DNA from: Haloarcula sp. CBA1129
GTDB lineage: Archaea; Halobacteriota; Halobacteria; Halobacteriales; Haloarculaceae
Assembly (NCBI RefSeq): GCF_008729015.1
Contig: NZ_RKSM01000003.1
Location: 310,001-374,000 of the forward strand
Direction of reading: 5' to 3'
DNA length: 64,000 nucleotides
The translations under genes and the position numbers were made by a program. This document shows positions 11,167-18,642 of this stretch, one piece after another (position 1 is the first letter of the stretch; each line of letters opens with the position of its first letter). Under the pieces are notes generated by a model. That model made no database searches. It had not been told where the DNA came from and worked only from the letters and a program-made list of their open reading frames with translations.

Positions 11167-11696
11167 TCTCTAACTTGATTCGAACAAATCGATATCAAGG
11201 TGAGTTATTCGGTATAGCTATACTGGATACTACTACCTAGCCCATACGATGAATCCATTCGTGGTCAGAGTGGGACGTACATGATGATAACGATAATCAA
11301 AATACATGACATACTCATCTGTTGAGGGTATCCGCCTCCATGCACAACCATCAAGACGGCAGTTACTCGCTGCCGCGTGTTCGGGATTGGCCGTACTCGC
11401 CGGTTGCAGCAGCGACCAAAATAGTGGGTCAGACGGGACAGAGAGTGGCGGCGGAGCCGAACCGACGCCTGAGCCAACTGCCACGGATAAACCGACGGTC
11501 AGCGGAAACAATGACGGGTCGACACAGTTCGGACAGGTCGCGCGGTTTCCGGAGTCATATGCGATGACAGCCACGATACAGTCCGAGGGACGGACTATGG
11601 AGATGACTGGCCGTTTCTATCAAGGAGATATGTACTGGTCCTTCGACCAGCAGGGACAAAAGATGGACGCTCTTGGGTAAGCGATTGTTGGTGGCG

Positions 11697-12581
11697 TCAT
11701 AGCGCAGTTTCGAGGATGGTTTTGAGTGCTTCATCGCCGGGTTTGCGGCGAACGCGCTTCCGAAGTTGTAACGCTCTGAGATACGGTGTGAGTCTGTCTT
11801 TGGAGACGCCCCGATGGGGCGAGAGCCACCGTCGTGCCAGCGACGCGTGGCTCTCGCACGTATTGACGTGAACGTCGCCATCAGCGTATTCACCCTCGCC
11901 ATGGACGACATACTGGCGGTCGAACGTGTCGTCCGAATCTAGTGGCTCGTAGGCTCGAAAGCCGTCGGTGTAGACAGTCAGCGACTCCTGCTGGCGGTTT
12001 CCTAGTAGGAGTCGAATCGTCGATTCGTCGGCGGCTTTCGCCGGGTGAACGTACGTTTCTCCAGTGCCACGGTCAGCGAGGAGAAACACCGGCGGCTTGT
12101 CCTCATGATACGTTCCACGCCCACGCGTGGACAGGCCACGCGAGCGCGACCGACCGTCGCGCTCGCGGCCTTTCTTCCCGGCTTTCACGTACAGTTCGTC
12201 GATTTCCACCGGGCCTTCGAGTTGTGGCCGAGGCGCGTCCAGGGCCCGCAGAAAGCGCTGGACGCGCCGGTAGACCGTCTTGTAGGTGACGGCGAGTTCA
12301 GCGTCCAGTTGCCTGATGCTCGTGTTCAGCCGGATGTAGGTGTAGACGGCGAGATACCACTTCCTGAGTGGTATCGACGAGTACTCGAAGACTGTGCCAG
12401 TCTTGTCGTTGAACGTGCGGTCGCAATCCTTACACAGATACCGTTGAAACACCCGATAGCTGCCGTACCGAATCGCGGATTCGTCACGGCAGCGCGGGCA
12501 ATAGATGCCGTTACGCCAGCGAATCTGTGCCAGCAGATTCGCGGCCCGACGCTCCGAGACGAACGTCTTCAATGGGAACAT
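11697..12581 (-). CDS. IS1595-family transposase, copy 2
   Basis: 294 residues, colinear with copy 1 and differing by scattered substitutions concentrated near the zinc ribbon (for example DGVYCPRCRTE against NGIYCPRCRDE, and CKDCGR against CKDCDR). The zinc-ribbon cysteines and the VEIDELYV, VYTDGFRAY and NTCESHASL motifs are conserved. The number of differences means the two copies are not a very recent duplication of one another. The frame is complete, so the element may be mobile. Confidence 0.93.
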   Translation of the reverse strand: MFPLKTFVSERRAANLLAQIRWRNGIYCPRCRDESAIRYGSYRVFQRYLCKDCDRTFNDKTGTVFEYSSIPLRKWYLAVYTYIRLNTSIRQLDAELAVTYKTVYRRVQRFLRALDAPRPQLEGPVEIDELYVKAGKKGRERDGRSRSRGLSTRGRGTYHEDKPPVFLLADRGTGETYVHPAKAADESTIRLLLGNRQQESLTVYTDGFRAYEPLDSDDTFDRQYVVHGEGEYADGDVHVNTCESHASLARRWLSPHRGVSKDRLTPYLRALQLRKRVRRKPGDEALKTILETAL

Positions 12582-12589
12582 TGTTCGTC

Positions 12590-12611
12590 GGGTGGCGCGG
12601 CCGCGCCACCC
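12590..12611. repeat. Palindrome in the IS1595 copy 2 leader
   Basis: A 22-nt self-complementary sequence, GGGTGGCGCG then GC then CGCGCCACCC, 8 bp before the transposase ATG. The same arms flank the nested IS630 element in copy 1, so the hairpin belongs to the element itself. Confidence 0.85.
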
Positions 12612-13086
12612 TTGCCCGCTGTGACTTCCAGCTACTACTGCAACTCACCAACAATCTTCTACAGAAGAGCGAAGATGGAAATGTACCATCTCGGGAACAA
12701 CACGTATACTGTAGCTGGAGGGCAGTGCCTCCGGGGAACGATGCAACAGGGAATGGACCGCGACGAGGTTAATCCGGGTCGGTTCTCCGATCAACCGGCG
12801 GCAAACCCCGATATCACACCGGTCGGCCGAGATACCATCGATGGTGAGGAAGTGCTAGTGTATGAAATCGCTCAGGACGGCTCCCCGGAGCCGGTGACAT
12901 ACTACATCCTCGCGGATTCCGGATATCCGCGACGTATTGAAGCCGAGTCAATGCGGTGGGACTTCCACTCTTGGGGTTCAGTTGAGCCGATCCAGAAACC
13001 CGAAGGAGACTGCCGCTCGATGTCCGGCGGTGGTATGCCAGCTGACGGTGGCAGTTAATCGCTCAGCAGGCCCTGACCTTGACCGG

Positions 13087-13686
13087 CTACTCGGAGAGTA
13101 AACACTTCTCGACATACCGCCGAAATTCGGCTCGCACGTCGTCGATAGTCTCCTTGTCGCTGGTAATCCGTTCAGCCTGAATCCCGACTAAAACGGTGTG
13201 GAACAGCGCGGCTGTCTGGGATGGGTCTTCAACATCAAATGCCCCTGCATCAACACCCGCTCGGATGACACGGGCGATCTGTTTTCGAATGAAATCATCA
13301 CTCCTGCGAAAGAGGCGGTTGTAATCGTCGTCGTGTGCTGCTTGCGCCCGCAATTCAATTACAGCCTGCGAAAACTCGACATCACTGTTACTGCTAGTGC
13401 CAAATATTTCGTCGACGATGATCTCGATATACTCTTCGGGAGACTGGTTAGGCAACGGGACCTGATTCTCGACCTGCTCCAACATATAATCCAAGAGATC
13501 TACCAACAGCTCGTCTTTGTTATCGTAATGATGATATATGAGGGATTGGCTCTTCCCGAATTCATCACCTATCTTTGAAATAGTAAGATCCGCGTACCCG
13601 TGCTGGCGTAATGCATAGAACGTAGCTTCAAGAATCTCCTCGCGGGTTCCCTCTGGATTCTGGAAAAAGGATATCTCGTTAGTCAT
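13087..13686 (-). CDS. TetR/AcrR-family repressor
   Basis: A 199-residue TetR protein. The N-terminal HTH is clear: TREEILEATFYALRQHGYADLTISKIGDEFGKSQSLIYHHYDNKDELLVDLLDYML. The C-terminal part is the all-helical ligand domain, with no specific ligand predicted. It is divergent from the COG1361-RND transporter genes, and two near-identical inverted repeats lie in the shared 500-bp upstream region, one of them on the core promoter of the transporter operon. Regulation of that transporter, by analogy with AcrR and similar repressors, is a reasonable inference. Confidence 0.92.
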   Translation of the reverse strand: MTNEISFFQNPEGTREEILEATFYALRQHGYADLTISKIGDEFGKSQSLIYHHYDNKDELLVDLLDYMLEQVENQVPLPNQSPEEYIEIIVDEIFGTSSNSDVEFSQAVIELRAQAAHDDDYNRLFRRSDDFIRKQIARVIRAGVDAGAFDVEDPSQTAALFHTVLVGIQAERITSDKETIDDVRAEFRRYVEKCLLSE

Positions 13687-13833
13687 CGTTACATCGACCG
13701 TTTCCTGCTTGTCTGGTACGGTTCAAATGGCTCACGGTTTTACTGTTTCCTCCCTGCAGATGCGAGGCCAATCTGAATTATGTTGTCTATCATTGAACTG
13801 AATAGCGGGTACAGGTTGCAGATAACTACACTG

Positions 13834-13849
13834 TTGACTATACATTCAA
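13834..13849. promoter_or_regulatory. Candidate TetR operator 1
   Basis: TTGACTATACATTCAA is an inverted repeat of the form TTGA-N8-TCAA. It matches operator 2 in reverse orientation in 16 of 20 positions over the extended site. It sits 148 bp upstream of the TetR start codon. Confidence 0.6.
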
Positions 13850-14073
13850 TGAACTTAAGCGTATTGTCGATCACTATCTCACCGAAGTACACTGGACTGT
13901 CCTCTAGTTCTATGTGCTCGGAGACATATTTCCCCTAGTGTTTCACAGTCTCTAAGACCCGTAAATTCCAGCAATAGACGCTTAGAATTGGCTGATTGCG
14001 AAACAGACAACCGGGTAGTGTCGCTTTTGATCTGGCGGCTGTCAGCATCTAGCTCTCAAAAGATACGAAAGCA

Positions 14074-14099
14074 CTATATGTGATTGAACGTTTAGTCAA
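14074..14099 (+). promoter_or_regulatory. TATA box with overlapping candidate TetR operator 2
   Basis: CTATATG at 14074-14080 is a TATA box about 30 bp before the ATG of the small ORF at 14109. Directly behind it at 14084-14099 is TTGAACGTTTAGTCAA, again TTGA-N8-TCAA. A repressor bound here would cover the start-site region, a standard repression geometry in archaea. Confidence 0.65.
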
Positions 14100-14108
14100 T
14101 ACCACGAA

Positions 14109-14186
14109 ATGACTACTCACAAACGAAGAATGCCGAGGCGGATTATCGCTAACAACGAGATGCGGTTTGAATGGACCCGCAAGTAA
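14109..14186 (+). CDS. 25-residue upstream ORF before the COG1361 gene
   Basis: ATG 14109 opens a 25-codon frame ending in TAA at 14184-14186, one base before the COG1361 start ATG at 14188. The peptide is very basic (it starts MTTHKRRMPRRIIANNEMR), unlike the acidic haloarchaeal proteome, so it may be a leader whose translation matters more than its product. The TATA box at 14074-14080 predicts a transcript starting within a few bases of this ATG, so leaderless ribosomes would enter here and could reinitiate at 14188. It could also be a chance frame. Confidence 0.45.
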   Translation: MTTHKRRMPRRIIANNEMRFEWTRK

Positions 14187-14187
14187 G

Positions 14188-16122
14188 ATGGCCGCTACAA
14201 GACATAAACTGCTACTTTTGGCTGTAATCGGGATTACCGTGACTAGTGGGACGGCAACTGCTGCAGTCGTTGGAAGCCCCGATATCGCGGCAACGCTTGA
14301 AGACGACACCGTTGCCCCGGGCGAACAGAAGACCATAGAAATCTCACTGGTCAACAGCGGGGAACTCGACAGTGGCTCCACTCGAAACCCGGCGTTGAAC
14401 AGCGAAGTAACAACGGCAAAGGGGCTTACTGTGTCACTCGGGTCAGGCGACGCCCCCATCTCAGTCAAGAACTCGAAACGCAGCCTCGGCACGCTACAGG
14501 CCGGGCCGAAAGTAACAGTGCCGTTTGACATCAGCGTGAACGAAGACGCCAGTTCTGGAACGTACGATGCACAACTGCGACTCAACTACAAGCACACAAG
14601 CTATATCTCCGAAGGGACAGGGTCACGAGACGAAGACAGGAAAACCAGAACTGTCGACATCGAAATCGACGTCACCGATGACGCCACGTTTAATGTGACC
14701 GATATTGACTCGAACGCACGCGTCGACTCTACAGGCTCGGTAGCAGTTCGCGTCGAAAATACTGGGGATAGCTCTGCACGGAACGCTGCGGTAACACTGG
14801 AATCACAGAATCAGGATCTCACAGTGAGCGGCGGCGATGCCACGTCACGGTTTGTTGATAAGTGGGAACCGGGAGAAGTCCGAACGTTCAACTACCGTGT
14901 GCGCGCTGCCGAAGCCGCGGAACCGGAGCCCTACGGGTTTGAGCTGTCGGTCGCATTTGACAACGAAGACGGCCTCCGAACACAATCCGTCGCACAATCT
15001 ATCGCGGTCGAACCTGACCCGGAACAGCGGTTCTCGGTCGTCAATTCAAGCAGTTCTGTCGCGGTCAGTAATACGGGAACGTACGAGGTTCAACTCCGAA
15101 ACACGGGCCCGCTGACTGTTGACGACGCATCTGTCTCGTTTGTTTCACAGAACGCCGATATAACGTTTGGAAAGAGCTCTTCGACGACCGCCTACGTGGG
15201 GGCATGGGAACCCGGGGAAGTCCGGACTGTCCGCGTCGACACGACGGCGAGCCCCGATGCCGAGGATCGAAGCTACGCGCTGTCGGCCAGCGTGCAGTAT
15301 GACGACCCGGAAGGCGATACCAGCACATATGATGATGTGCCGTTAAGCCTCACTCCTGCGCCTGAACAGAACTTCGGCGTGTCCAACATTGACACGTCGC
15401 TTCAGGCCGGCGAAGACGGATCACTGAGTGCAACCCTTACAAACACTGGAACACGTGACGTCGAGAACGTCGTCATCGGATGGGAAAGCCAGCAGTCGAC
15501 ACTGTCGCCAAAAGAGTCACAGTATGCTGTTGGAGATCTCGCTGCGGGCGAATCAGCCAACTTCAGCTTCGGTGTTGATGTGTCCAACAGTGCAGAGGCG
15601 GGCGCTCGGCAGTTTGACTTCGGCGTGAGCTACCGCGACGACAACGGTGACAGGGTCGGAGCGGACACACTCGAAATCCGCTCAGAAGTGGCTGGTAGTC
15701 AGGACGAATTCGACATCGAGATGCAAAATTCGACGCTCGGTGTGGGACAGGCCCGGTCAGTCACGTTTACGATAACCAACACAAAGGACAAGACGCTGAC
15801 AAGCATCGAGGGGAAAGCGTTCGTCAATGACCCGCTCAGCAGTAGTGACGATGAAACGTTCATCGCGACACTGGAACCCGGAGAGTCGGAAACGGTCTCC
15901 GTCCAGCTTTCGGCGGGGAGCGATGCGCTGGATAAGACGTATCCGCTCAATCTGGACTTCCAGTATGAGACGCCTGATGGGGAGAAACGGGTTTCTGACA
16001 CCTACAGTCTCCCGATAGAAGTCAGTGACCAGTCCGGAAGCGGAGGGACGCCGCTGTGGTTGGTCGGTGGCATTGGACTCCTTGCCGTCGTCGGCGGCGT
16101 GGTCTGGTACAGGCGACAGTAA
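14188..16122 (+). CDS. COG1361 S-layer-like protein, partner of the RND transporter
   Basis: A 644-residue exported protein. It has a signal peptide (KLLLLAVIGITVTSGTATAA), then at least five repeated Ig-like or CARDB-like units marked by the recurring patterns VENTGDSSARNAAVTLES, VEPDPEQRF and WEPGEVRTF, and a single C-terminal membrane segment (PLWLVGGIGLLAVVGGVVWY) with a short basic tail. It is 27 bp upstream of an RND transporter, a pairing seen in other archaea. It would lie outside the membrane, anchored at the C-terminus, and may act as an adaptor for the transporter; this role is inference. ATG 14188 is preferred over the in-frame TTG at 14167. Confidence 0.87.
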   Translation: MAATRHKLLLLAVIGITVTSGTATAAVVGSPDIAATLEDDTVAPGEQKTIEISLVNSGELDSGSTRNPALNSEVTTAKGLTVSLGSGDAPISVKNSKRSLGTLQAGPKVTVPFDISVNEDASSGTYDAQLRLNYKHTSYISEGTGSRDEDRKTRTVDIEIDVTDDATFNVTDIDSNARVDSTGSVAVRVENTGDSSARNAAVTLESQNQDLTVSGGDATSRFVDKWEPGEVRTFNYRVRAAEAAEPEPYGFELSVAFDNEDGLRTQSVAQSIAVEPDPEQRFSVVNSSSSVAVSNTGTYEVQLRNTGPLTVDDASVSFVSQNADITFGKSSSTTAYVGAWEPGEVRTVRVDTTASPDAEDRSYALSASVQYDDPEGDTSTYDDVPLSLTPAPEQNFGVSNIDTSLQAGEDGSLSATLTNTGTRDVENVVIGWESQQSTLSPKESQYAVGDLAAGESANFSFGVDVSNSAEAGARQFDFGVSYRDDNGDRVGADTLEIRSEVAGSQDEFDIEMQNSTLGVGQARSVTFTITNTKDKTLTSIEGKAFVNDPLSSSDDETFIATLEPGESETVSVQLSAGSDALDKTYPLNLDFQYETPDGEKRVSDTYSLPIEVSDQSGSGGTPLWLVGGIGLLAVVGGVVWYRRQ

Positions 16123-16149: not shown

Positions 16150-18642
16150 ATGTTAGATTATCAGAAATATATCGACGTACTAGACGATTGGATTGTCAAC
16201 CGTGACAAGACAGTCGTCGCTGTGTTCATCGTCACAACCCTCATTCTGTCGGCGGGGTTCGGCATGACTGCGACCGACTCAGGGACATCACAGTTCACTG
16301 ACGGCGTTCCTGCACAGGAAGCGTTCGACGAGGTCAATGACAACTTCGAGCGCGAACCGTTCGGTGAAGGGACCGGCTCTACGACACTTATTCAAAAGGA
16401 CCAGAACGTCCTGTCGAAGCCGGCCATCCTCAACATGCTGAAAGCGCAGCACCGGCTTACGCAGCGCGAATCACAGGACGTTGTCGGAACGACGAGTGTC
16501 GCACAGGCCGTCGCCCAGACACTTGACCCGGACGCGAACACACTGCCCGAACAAATCGACACTGTGGAAGCAGCCTCACAGACGGAGATTAAATCGGCCA
16601 CCAGAACGACGCTTGAGCGCCAGCCGGCAGTTGCAGGGCTGCTCAGCAACGACCTCAACCGAGAAGCGCCGTCGGCCTCTGCAACGCTGACGACTGTTAC
16701 ACACGAGGTTTCGGGTGTGTCAAGCAGTGCTGGGACAGAGGGGTCATCACCACTGACACCCATTCAACAGGAAGCGGAGTTCATTGTCAGTTCGGTTGAC
16801 GGTGATATCTCTGTGTTCGGCAGTGGACTCATCTCTGCAGAACTGAGCAGTGTCATCTCCGATTCGCTGGGGCTCGTCGTCCCAGCCGCCGTGGTCCTGA
16901 TACTGTTCTTCCTTATTATCGCATACCGAGACCCGTTTGATCTGCTGATTGGCCTCGTCTCCCTTGCGATGGCGATTATCTGGACATTCGGGTTCATGGG
17001 ATGGGCCAGTATCCCCTTCACGCAGATGCTGATCACAGTCCCGCCGTTGCTTCTCGCAATCGGGATTGACTTCGGGATTCACGCTGTAAACCGATACCGC
17101 GAAGAGCGGGTCGAAGGGATCGAACCGACGCCTGCAATGCGGACCGCAACCGACCAGTTGCTCCCGGCGTTCTTCATTGTGACAGGAACGACAGTGCTGG
17201 GATTCGCCGCAAACGGGACCAGCCAGCTCGGTCCGATCCGCGATCTCGGCTTCGTGGCCAGCGTCGGCATCATATTTACGTTCCTCATCTTCGGTATCTT
17301 CCTCCCGTCGTTCAAGCACTTCATGGATCGCCAGCGTGTGCGATACGACCTCCCTGAGTTCAGCATCGCCCCGATTGGCTCTGAGGACTCCGCAGTCGGG
17401 AAGTCGCTAACTGTCGGTGTGACAATCGCCCGTCGAGCCCCGTACGTATTCTTTGCCCTCGTACTGGTGTCTACGGCGGCTTTGGGGGCGTATGGAACTG
17501 GGATTGATACCCGGTTCACTACGGAGGACTTCCTGCCACCGGAAGAGAACCCCGAATACGTTGAGGTTCTGCCGGAAGCTGTGGCTCCGAGCGAGTACAC
17601 AGTCACGAAGCAGATAAATTATCTCGAAGACACGTTCGAGAGCGGCGAGAGTGACACAGTAACGATATACGTCGAAGGGTCGTTACAGGACGGAACAGCG
17701 CTGGAGGAGATCCATCGGGCGAATCAGGACCCGCCCGACTCCTTTGTTACAGCCGGCGGGAGTGCAGATACGACAAGCATCCTCACCGTTATTAACCGGT
17801 ACGAGCGTGCGTCGCCGGAGTTCCGGCAACTCGTCGCACAGAACGACCAGAACGGTAACGGCGTCCCTGACCAGAATCTCCCGACAATCTACAACGCGTT
17901 GTATGAGTCACCGTACGGCGACCGCGCGGAATCGTACATGACTGACGACTACGCGCGAACGCGCATCGTGTACTCCGTTGAGTCTGATGCGAGCCAACAG
18001 GAAGTGACAGATGATACGAGAGCCGTTGCGGATGAGTTCCGGATGGAGGCGACCGCGACTGGTAGCGTTGTAGTCCTGAAAGCGGTCTCTGACGTTATCG
18101 CCGAGTCAGCGTACATCAGCTTAGGCCTCGCGATCCTCGCGTCTGCAGTGTTCCTGTTCTTTGCCTACTGGCTACTTGAACGCCGTCCCGGGCTGGGGGC
18201 TGCGAATCTCGTGCCGATACTGCTCACTATCGCCGCCTTGGCTGCGACAATGCGGTATCTGGACATCCCGTTCAACGTCCTCACCGGAACGACGCTATCA
18301 ATCGGCATCGGGCTTGGTATCGATTACTCCGCCCACCTCGTGCATCGGTTCTCCGAGGAGTACCGCGGCGACACCGGCTTGCTTGAAGCACTCGACATTA
18401 GTGTCCGCGGAACCGGTGGCGCACTGGCGGGCAGTATGGTCACCACAACATCTGGAACCGGGGTACTCGTCCTCGCGGTTGTCCCGATTCTGGGCCAGTT
18501 TGGACTGTTGATCGCCCTTAGCGTCCTCTATTCGTTCATTGCGTCCATACTGGTCCTCCCAGCATCGATTGTCATCTGGGACCACAGCCGTGGAGCGCTT
18601 GAGACACTGCTATCCTCACGCACAGCACGGAGCATGAATTAA
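16150..18642 (+). CDS. RND/MMPL-family transporter
   Basis: 830 residues with the typical two-half layout: a first membrane segment near 20-40, a large external loop to about 230, five membrane segments to about 400, a second membrane segment near 430, an external loop to about 650 and five more segments to the end. Both halves carry the family motif around GIDFGIHAVNRYREE and GLGIDYSAHLVHRFSEE, which contains the acidic residues used for ion coupling in MMPL proteins. It follows the COG1361 protein and precedes a second TetR gene, so an efflux or surface-lipid export role is likely. The substrate is not predictable. Confidence 0.92.
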   Translation: MLDYQKYIDVLDDWIVNRDKTVVAVFIVTTLILSAGFGMTATDSGTSQFTDGVPAQEAFDEVNDNFEREPFGEGTGSTTLIQKDQNVLSKPAILNMLKAQHRLTQRESQDVVGTTSVAQAVAQTLDPDANTLPEQIDTVEAASQTEIKSATRTTLERQPAVAGLLSNDLNREAPSASATLTTVTHEVSGVSSSAGTEGSSPLTPIQQEAEFIVSSVDGDISVFGSGLISAELSSVISDSLGLVVPAAVVLILFFLIIAYRDPFDLLIGLVSLAMAIIWTFGFMGWASIPFTQMLITVPPLLLAIGIDFGIHAVNRYREERVEGIEPTPAMRTATDQLLPAFFIVTGTTVLGFAANGTSQLGPIRDLGFVASVGIIFTFLIFGIFLPSFKHFMDRQRVRYDLPEFSIAPIGSEDSAVGKSLTVGVTIARRAPYVFFALVLVSTAALGAYGTGIDTRFTTEDFLPPEENPEYVEVLPEAVAPSEYTVTKQINYLEDTFESGESDTVTIYVEGSLQDGTALEEIHRANQDPPDSFVTAGGSADTTSILTVINRYERASPEFRQLVAQNDQNGNGVPDQNLPTIYNALYESPYGDRAESYMTDDYARTRIVYSVESDASQQEVTDDTRAVADEFRMEATATGSVVVLKAVSDVIAESAYISLGLAILASAVFLFFAYWLLERRPGLGAANLVPILLTIAALAATMRYLDIPFNVLTGTTLSIGIGLGIDYSAHLVHRFSEEYRGDTGLLEALDISVRGTGGALAGSMVTTTSGTGVLVLAVVPILGQFGLLIALSVLYSFIASILVLPASIVIWDHSRGALETLLSSRTARSMN

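Follow-up and report, generated by a model that had tools for sequence, protein, structure and literature searches.

The DNA between a divergent TetR-family repressor gene and the gene of a COG1361 surface protein in Haloarcula raises the question of how ribosomes are supplied to a coding sequence lying behind a leader of some 85 nt, and whether a 25-codon open reading frame placed just upstream of it takes part in this supply. The question is a real one, since leaderless mRNAs make up 72% of the protein-coding transcripts of Haloferax (PMC4983044), while the Shine-Dalgarno (SD) sequence has no initiating role at 5′ UTRs and is inessential for reinitiation (PMC6728339), as stated in the available portions of these two reports.

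The window (the whole stretch of 64,000 nucleotides that was analysed) sits within a contig of 528,641 bases, in a genome of 4.05 Mb. The tetR gene is on the minus strand (13087 to 13686, Pfam TetR_N and TetR_C_6), and the annotations of H. hispanica and H. marismortui call its counterpart TetR/AcrR. About 500 bases separate it from the plus-strand gene of the COG1361, or CARDB-NEW3, surface protein (14188 to 16122, 644 aa, Pfam CARDB and NPCBM_assoc). An MMPL/RND-type transporter gene follows on the same strand after a gap of 27 nt (16150 to 18642, Pfam MMPL, 2.4e-29). The seven closest relatives, at 80-92% identity, are from six Haloarcula and one Haloglomus. On the other side of tetR, in 11306 to 13058, a lipoprotein-like ORF with a lipobox-like cysteine (start 11306) is apparently interrupted by an IS1595-type transposase gene (11697 to 12581, minus strand); from a reading of the translations, more of its frame is near the end of the ORF at 12045 to 13058.

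The small ORF, hereafter uORF, begins with an ATG at 14109 on the plus strand, stops with a TAA at 14184 to 14186, and encodes MTTHKRRMPRRIIANNEMRFEWTRK. A single G (14187) lies between this stop and the COG1361 ATG at 14188. The peptide has a net charge of +6, only 4.8% of the 310 short ORFs of the window being equally basic per residue, and it has no Pfam match. Upstream are a BRE-like cgaaa (14066 to 14070) and a TATA-like tatat (14075 to 14079), both on the plus strand, the centre of the latter being ∼32 nt from the uORF ATG. Archaeal transcription usually starts about 26-27 nt from the TATA centre. By this spacing rule, and given that the length between operator (see below) and ATG varies by only 0-2 nt among orthologues, the start site is predicted at 14102 to 14105 on the plus strand, with a leader of ∼4-7 nt before the uORF ATG, as counted from the TATA position. 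Such a leader would be at the edge of the Haloferax definition of leaderless, which is 0-5 nt in the available text of PMC4983044. The initial annotation had described a basic ORF of 25 residues ending one base before the COG1361 start, and this is confirmed (14109 to 14186, charge +6), as is its direct abutment on COG1361 with a one-base gap. It had also seen there a leaderless mini-gene, with the promoter aimed at it rather than at COG1361: the positions of the BRE- and TATA-like elements support the second point, with a start site that is predicted, and a near-leaderless first AUG is supported as a prediction from the position of the TATA box.

The pattern TTGA-N8-TCAA occurs just twice in the 64-kb window, both times inside the tetR-COG1361 intergenic region. 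One putative TetR operator is on the tetR side (13834 to 13849), and none of the 13 orthologues lacks it; the other, TTGAACGTTTAGTCAA (14084 to 14099), is placed between the TATA box and the predicted start site. This second site is strict in 11 of the 13, and ends in TCAG instead in L028 and L029. Of the 36 columns in the block running from the BRE to the operator, 27 are invariant, and the 13 sequences align there without a gap. These palindromes are likely to be operators of the divergent TetR protein, which would then be autoregulatory. A search of the plus strand between 13600 and 14300 returned no bacterial-type promoter or terminator. In L018, L019, L020 and L021, a third TTGA-N8-TCAA site was noticed inside the 3′-terminal part of the uORF, ∼21 nt before COG1361, and the window carries a near match at this place.

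Conservation was analysed in 13 distinct orthologous leaders, namely the window's own (L016) and L018 to L029. The uORF ATG is kept in all of them, with a frame that remains open over 24-25 codons and has no indel, so that the comparison with related strains proposed in the initial annotation found the ORF conserved in 13 of 13 Haloarcula orthologues. The stop is 1 nt before the COG1361 ATG in 12 of them and 4 nt before it in the last (L027). In the same alignment, no gap falls within the uORF, as against 63 gap runs over the 193 columns from −320 to −130. The encoded sequence is another matter. Over the 78 pairs formed by the 13 orthologues, pN/pS of the uORF is 0.94, against 0.13 for COG1361. 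Per site, codon positions 1, 2 and 3 differ by 0.27, 0.24 and 0.29 in the uORF, and by 0.07, 0.04 and 0.34 in COG1361. The uORF frame is very short and its pN/pS is noisy, as seen from the values of 1.42 and 0.58 in two subgroups; with these three values, purifying selection on the amino-acid sequence of the uORF was not detected. Net charge spans +1 to +7 among the 13 peptides. The weight that had been placed on a positive peptide is therefore not supported, because both charge and sequence drift, and the basic character is most likely incidental.

Amid this drift, CGAAGAAT (14124 to 14131), which contains the arginine codons CGA and AGA, forms an 8-nt invariant run in all 13 uORFs, and at the peptide level Arg6-Arg7 and Glu17 are invariant in 13 of 13. 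The constancy of CGA-AGA and of Glu17 is a hint that nucleotides or residues are under some constraint. AGA accounts for 4, and CGA for 17, of the 1676 codons of tetR, COG1361 and MMPL taken together. A conserved RNA element was considered and rejected: the RNAalifold consensus had 15 pairs, a single one with a two-sided change and none inside the uORF, and Rfam gave no match in 13000 to 15000.

One such mini-ORF proves nothing by itself, because on Haloarcula hispanica pHH400 a comparable coupled ORF precedes 11 of the 61 genes used as controls. These were annotated genes whose upstream DNA was free over at least 80 nt, and the rule counted any ATG ORF of at least 8 codons within 160 nt whose end fell between −8 and +6 nt relative to the start. 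Neutral HKY evolution along the COG1361 tree was simulated by substitutions alone, with the leader of the window as the initial sequence. Not one of 4000 runs preserved the strict ORF throughout the 12 relatives (mean 1.4 kept out of 12), and 0.6% preserved some coupled first-AUG route in all of them, the test being slightly too severe since simulated divergence was 0.313 for an observed value of 0.276. Retention of the uORF in 13 of 13 orthologues exceeds a neutral model. When leaders were shuffled by dinucleotides with the first ATG fixed, coupling was obtained in 3.5-6.5% of cases for the five orthologues tried. In most paralogue clades the corresponding probability was 0.36-0.83, and it was about 0.1 for L053 and L057. 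The case thus rests on the 13 orthologues, because an ATGA start in stop-poor DNA often couples by chance (36-83%). The product across clades, 3.5e-6, was set aside as a probability, two of its nine rows being related.

Whether translation can pass from the uORF to COG1361 depends on where the latter starts. As annotated in H. hispanica pHH400, H. marismortui pNG700 and H. taiwanensis pNYT2, it begins at the ATG that corresponds to 14188; the PLSDB gene tables of these three plasmids, which are incomplete, list no mini-gene before COG1361. An SD match of at least 4 nt is absent before COG1361 in 12 of 13 orthologues, the window included, and L023 has GGAG. An in-frame TTG (14167 in the window, replaced by GTG in L029) is found 21 nt before the COG1361 ATG in 12 of 13. 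This TTG could be an alternative start, the annotated relatives using ATG; were COG1361 to start there, the overlap with the uORF would be too long for coupling. With the annotated ATG, the distance from stop to start (+1 in 12 of 13, +4 in one) falls in the haloarchaeal reinitiation range of about −8 to +10 nt.

From the sequence, its conservation, the near-neutral codon drift, the operator-like pair and the absent SD match, all observed directly, we infer that the uORF is probably a near-leaderless ribosome-delivery cistron that feeds COG1361 by termination-reinitiation. RNA polymerase would start a few bases before 14109, in a region that would be covered by a TetR-type operator. The mRNA would open with the uORF AUG, used by leaderless or near-leaderless initiation; the ribosome would read 25 codons, terminate at the TAA and reinitiate at the COG1361 AUG one base further on. 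In Haloferax, a native pair with a +1-nt spacing is coupled, reinitiation is down 60% when the spacing is 13 nt and abolished at 22 nt, so that coupling is lost over some 20 nt (PMC10666635), and for the nine pairs tested the downstream gene depended fully on upstream translation (PMC6728339), going by the available parts of both articles. Together with the prevalence of leaderless transcripts, the lack of initiation by SD at 5′ UTRs and the SD-less COG1361 start, this coupling suggests that an mRNA beginning at the uORF AUG would be read from there. Start, stop and frame would be kept, and the peptide left free, because COG1361 would be reached by reinitiation from that AUG. Selection would then retain the ATG, the open frame, its length and the position of the stop, the encoded peptide being largely irrelevant.

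Other readings have to be weighed. COG1361 might be initiated independently, at the ATG or the TTG of its SD-less leader of ∼85 nt, the uORF being a tolerated by-product. Haloferax does translate leadered mRNAs that lack an SD, coupled uORFs arise readily by chance, as in the 11 of 61 controls, and the TTG or GTG at −21 is shared by 12 of 13 orthologues. However, with such a passive leader, the observed divergence should have cost some of the uORFs their start, stop or frame, all 4000 simulations lost the strict ORF somewhere, and the 13 uORFs have zero indels where flanking DNA has many; use of the TTG is moreover at odds with the ATG of the annotated relatives. We hold independent initiation to be rather unlikely. 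It is also improbable that the uORF acts by attenuation or stalling, its invariant CGA-AGA slowing ribosomes early and tuning COG1361 expression: the 8 nt of CGAAGAAT are the same in 13 sequences and AGA is rare, but CGA is not so rare, RNAalifold places no conserved structure within the uORF and the Rfam search of 13000 to 15000 was negative. A leader-peptide attenuator proper was not supported, as the uORF has no consensus structure, 13600 to 14300 has no bacterial-type terminator and Rfam has no match.

That the 25-aa product would be a functional basic micro-protein of the operon is very unlikely in our estimate. The constant Arg6-Arg7 and Glu17, the constant ORF length and a basicity above that of 95% of the short ORFs of the window do speak for it. 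Against it are the near-neutral pN/pS of 0.94, a charge that varies from +1 to +7, the lack of a Pfam match, its absence from Haloglomus and the fact that paralogues encode other peptides at the same place; a conserved micro-protein was disfavoured on the first two grounds in particular. More generally, a conserved short ORF of which mainly the frame is conserved is no ground for naming a basic micro-protein.

Our preferred reading, a ribosome-delivery cistron, describes an arrangement that is known from mycobacteria and built of steps shown in Haloferax. The following comparisons are drawn from the portions of the cited papers that were available. The nearest known arrangement is that of the mycobacterial leaderless small ORFs (Shell et al. 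2015, PMC4633059), in which a small ORF at a leaderless 5′ end directly precedes an annotated gene. Its placement is sometimes conserved above its peptide, and ribosome delivery was proposed; likewise the Haloarcula uORF is kept in 13 of 13 with a pN/pS of 0.94, and its 25 codons lie within the 5-50 codons used there. The mycobacterial “coupled” class is defined by an RTGA overlap, whereas the Haloarcula junction, TAAGATG with +1 nt, would belong to the “uORF” class, ATGA being seen in paralogues only. The present case further differs in being archaeal, in having an operator-like site over the start region, and in that its start site and translation are predicted. The uORF of Mycobacterium tuberculosis ppe2 must be translated for the downstream protein to be made, termination-reinitiation being given as the main route; it stands under a B12 riboswitch (PMC11260477), unlike the Haloarcula leader with its negative Rfam search.

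Among archaea, the reinitiation pairs of Haloferax volcanii (PMC6728339, PMC10666635) are close in that the Haloarcula stop and start are within the coupling range, a native +1 pair is among them, and SD is inessential; the Haloarcula upstream cistron differs by having just 25 codons and a hardly constrained peptide. H. volcanii also has uORFs of 15-31 aa, that is, small ORFs preceding normal genes as in Haloarcula. Those were sought in leaders of 150-250 nt and all had a low isoelectric point (PMC4983044), whereas the Haloarcula uORF is basic, opens close to where the transcript is predicted to begin, and runs directly up to the following gene. Translated small ORFs are reported in Methanosarcina mazei, 10% of the unannotated ones being in 5′ UTRs and possible uORFs; unlike Haloarcula, the available text holds no conserved, coupled and peptide-independent case (PMC11456600). 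Delivery of ribosomes by short ORFs is an idea present in a recent review, as far as its available text goes (PMC12548453), and archaeal translation is reviewed in PMC7531240. The initial annotation had called such a control step unusual in archaea. This holds in part: uORFs, leaderless transcripts and +1-nt coupling are described in H. volcanii, but a mini-cistron whose conservation lies mainly in its ends and its frame does look unusual. Among the matches listed for haloarchaeal leaderless uORFs and for archaeal uORF reinitiation, seen in part, none was an archaeal conserved peptide-independent mini-cistron, an earlier description in H. volcanii ribosome profiling being possible; those listed for haloarchaeal TetR with MMPL, or for COG1361, showed nothing on this operon in their titles and the opening of their abstracts.

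We finally surveyed the upstream regions of 82 COG1361 loci, with paralogue starts assigned from translations. L042 to L046, weaker search matches, G060, G136 and L012 were left out. L001 to L005 and L007, which are the same contigs as loci with G handles, were used in alignment A1 only; L008 and L009 duplicate the contigs of L059 and L036, and L008 to L011 and L013 to L015 were read once. In L099 the position assigned as the start holds no start codon, and this locus counts only in the total of 82 and in the 46 of 82 that were positive by the rule applied to the pHH400 controls. Operator patterns were matched by 43 of the 82 loci and not by the other 39, the pattern variant for L006 being derived from the L006 sequence itself. 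Assuming that transcription starts four bases after the operator-like site, the route from the first AUG reached the COG1361 start in 41 of the 43 operator-bearing loci, the exceptions being L054 and L092. Of the 42 that have an upstream AUG, 40 (the 13 orthologues included) reached it by coupled steps. Paralogue mini-peptides differ, vary from 7 to 47 codons, and nearly always overlap the next start by ATGA. Two mini-ORFs are in tandem in the L017 clade, and three in L057 and L060; the route in the L017 clade hinges on where transcription is assumed to begin, because several members have an AUG a little further upstream that shares the COG1361 frame. Taken singly, paralogue clades are weak evidence, and many of the loci are closely related.

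The remaining locus with an operator is that of Haloglomus irregulare (L006, one genome), which has no uORF: the COG1361 ATG comes 7 nt after the operator and is reached by a direct route. Its COG1361 is 80% identical, it has TetR and MMPL neighbours, and it has a like promoter with a variant of the same operator. Natural states can thus be compared, the uORF being kept in Haloarcula and absent behind a like promoter in Haloglomus, which makes a small testable case. An MMPL gene lies downstream of COG1361 in all loci checked (L006, L008, L017, L030, L038, L041, L047 and L050), and the same loci have a divergent tetR gene upstream, apart from L008, which was checked for MMPL only.

Many of the 39 loci that lack an operator match also lack a coupled ORF. 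In L036, L052 and L059, GGAG or GGAGG closely precedes the COG1361 start; GGAG is also present in L037, where the sole upstream frame, of 62 codons, begins 185 nt upstream. SD is no clean separator: the uORF-bearing L038, L040, L047 and L050 show SD-like matches of 4-6 nt, and many COG1361 loci devoid of uORF are devoid of an SD match as well. It is possible, and we suggest it tentatively, that the TetR-linked COG1361-MMPL operons of the Haloarculaceae carry a class of peptide-independent starter cistrons, single or chained, that would convert a leaderless start into a supply of ribosomes for the surface protein; other lineages would meet the same need by direct leaderless initiation, as in Haloglomus, or by an SD-like leader, as in L036, L052 and L059.

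Further small ORFs were noticed on the way. In the paralogue leaders of L017, L053, L056, L058, L061, L062 and L064, a mini-ORF of 19 codons has CPKCPYA or CPKCPYV as its last residues, overlaps the next start by ATGA, has a pN/pS of about 0.4, and is itself preceded by a 10-codon mini-ORF. H. hispanica pHH400 (L115, 21583 to 23024) has another case of a small cistron next to a large gene, in which the gene for a rubrerythrin-like product of 47 aa ends 2 nt before gdhB.
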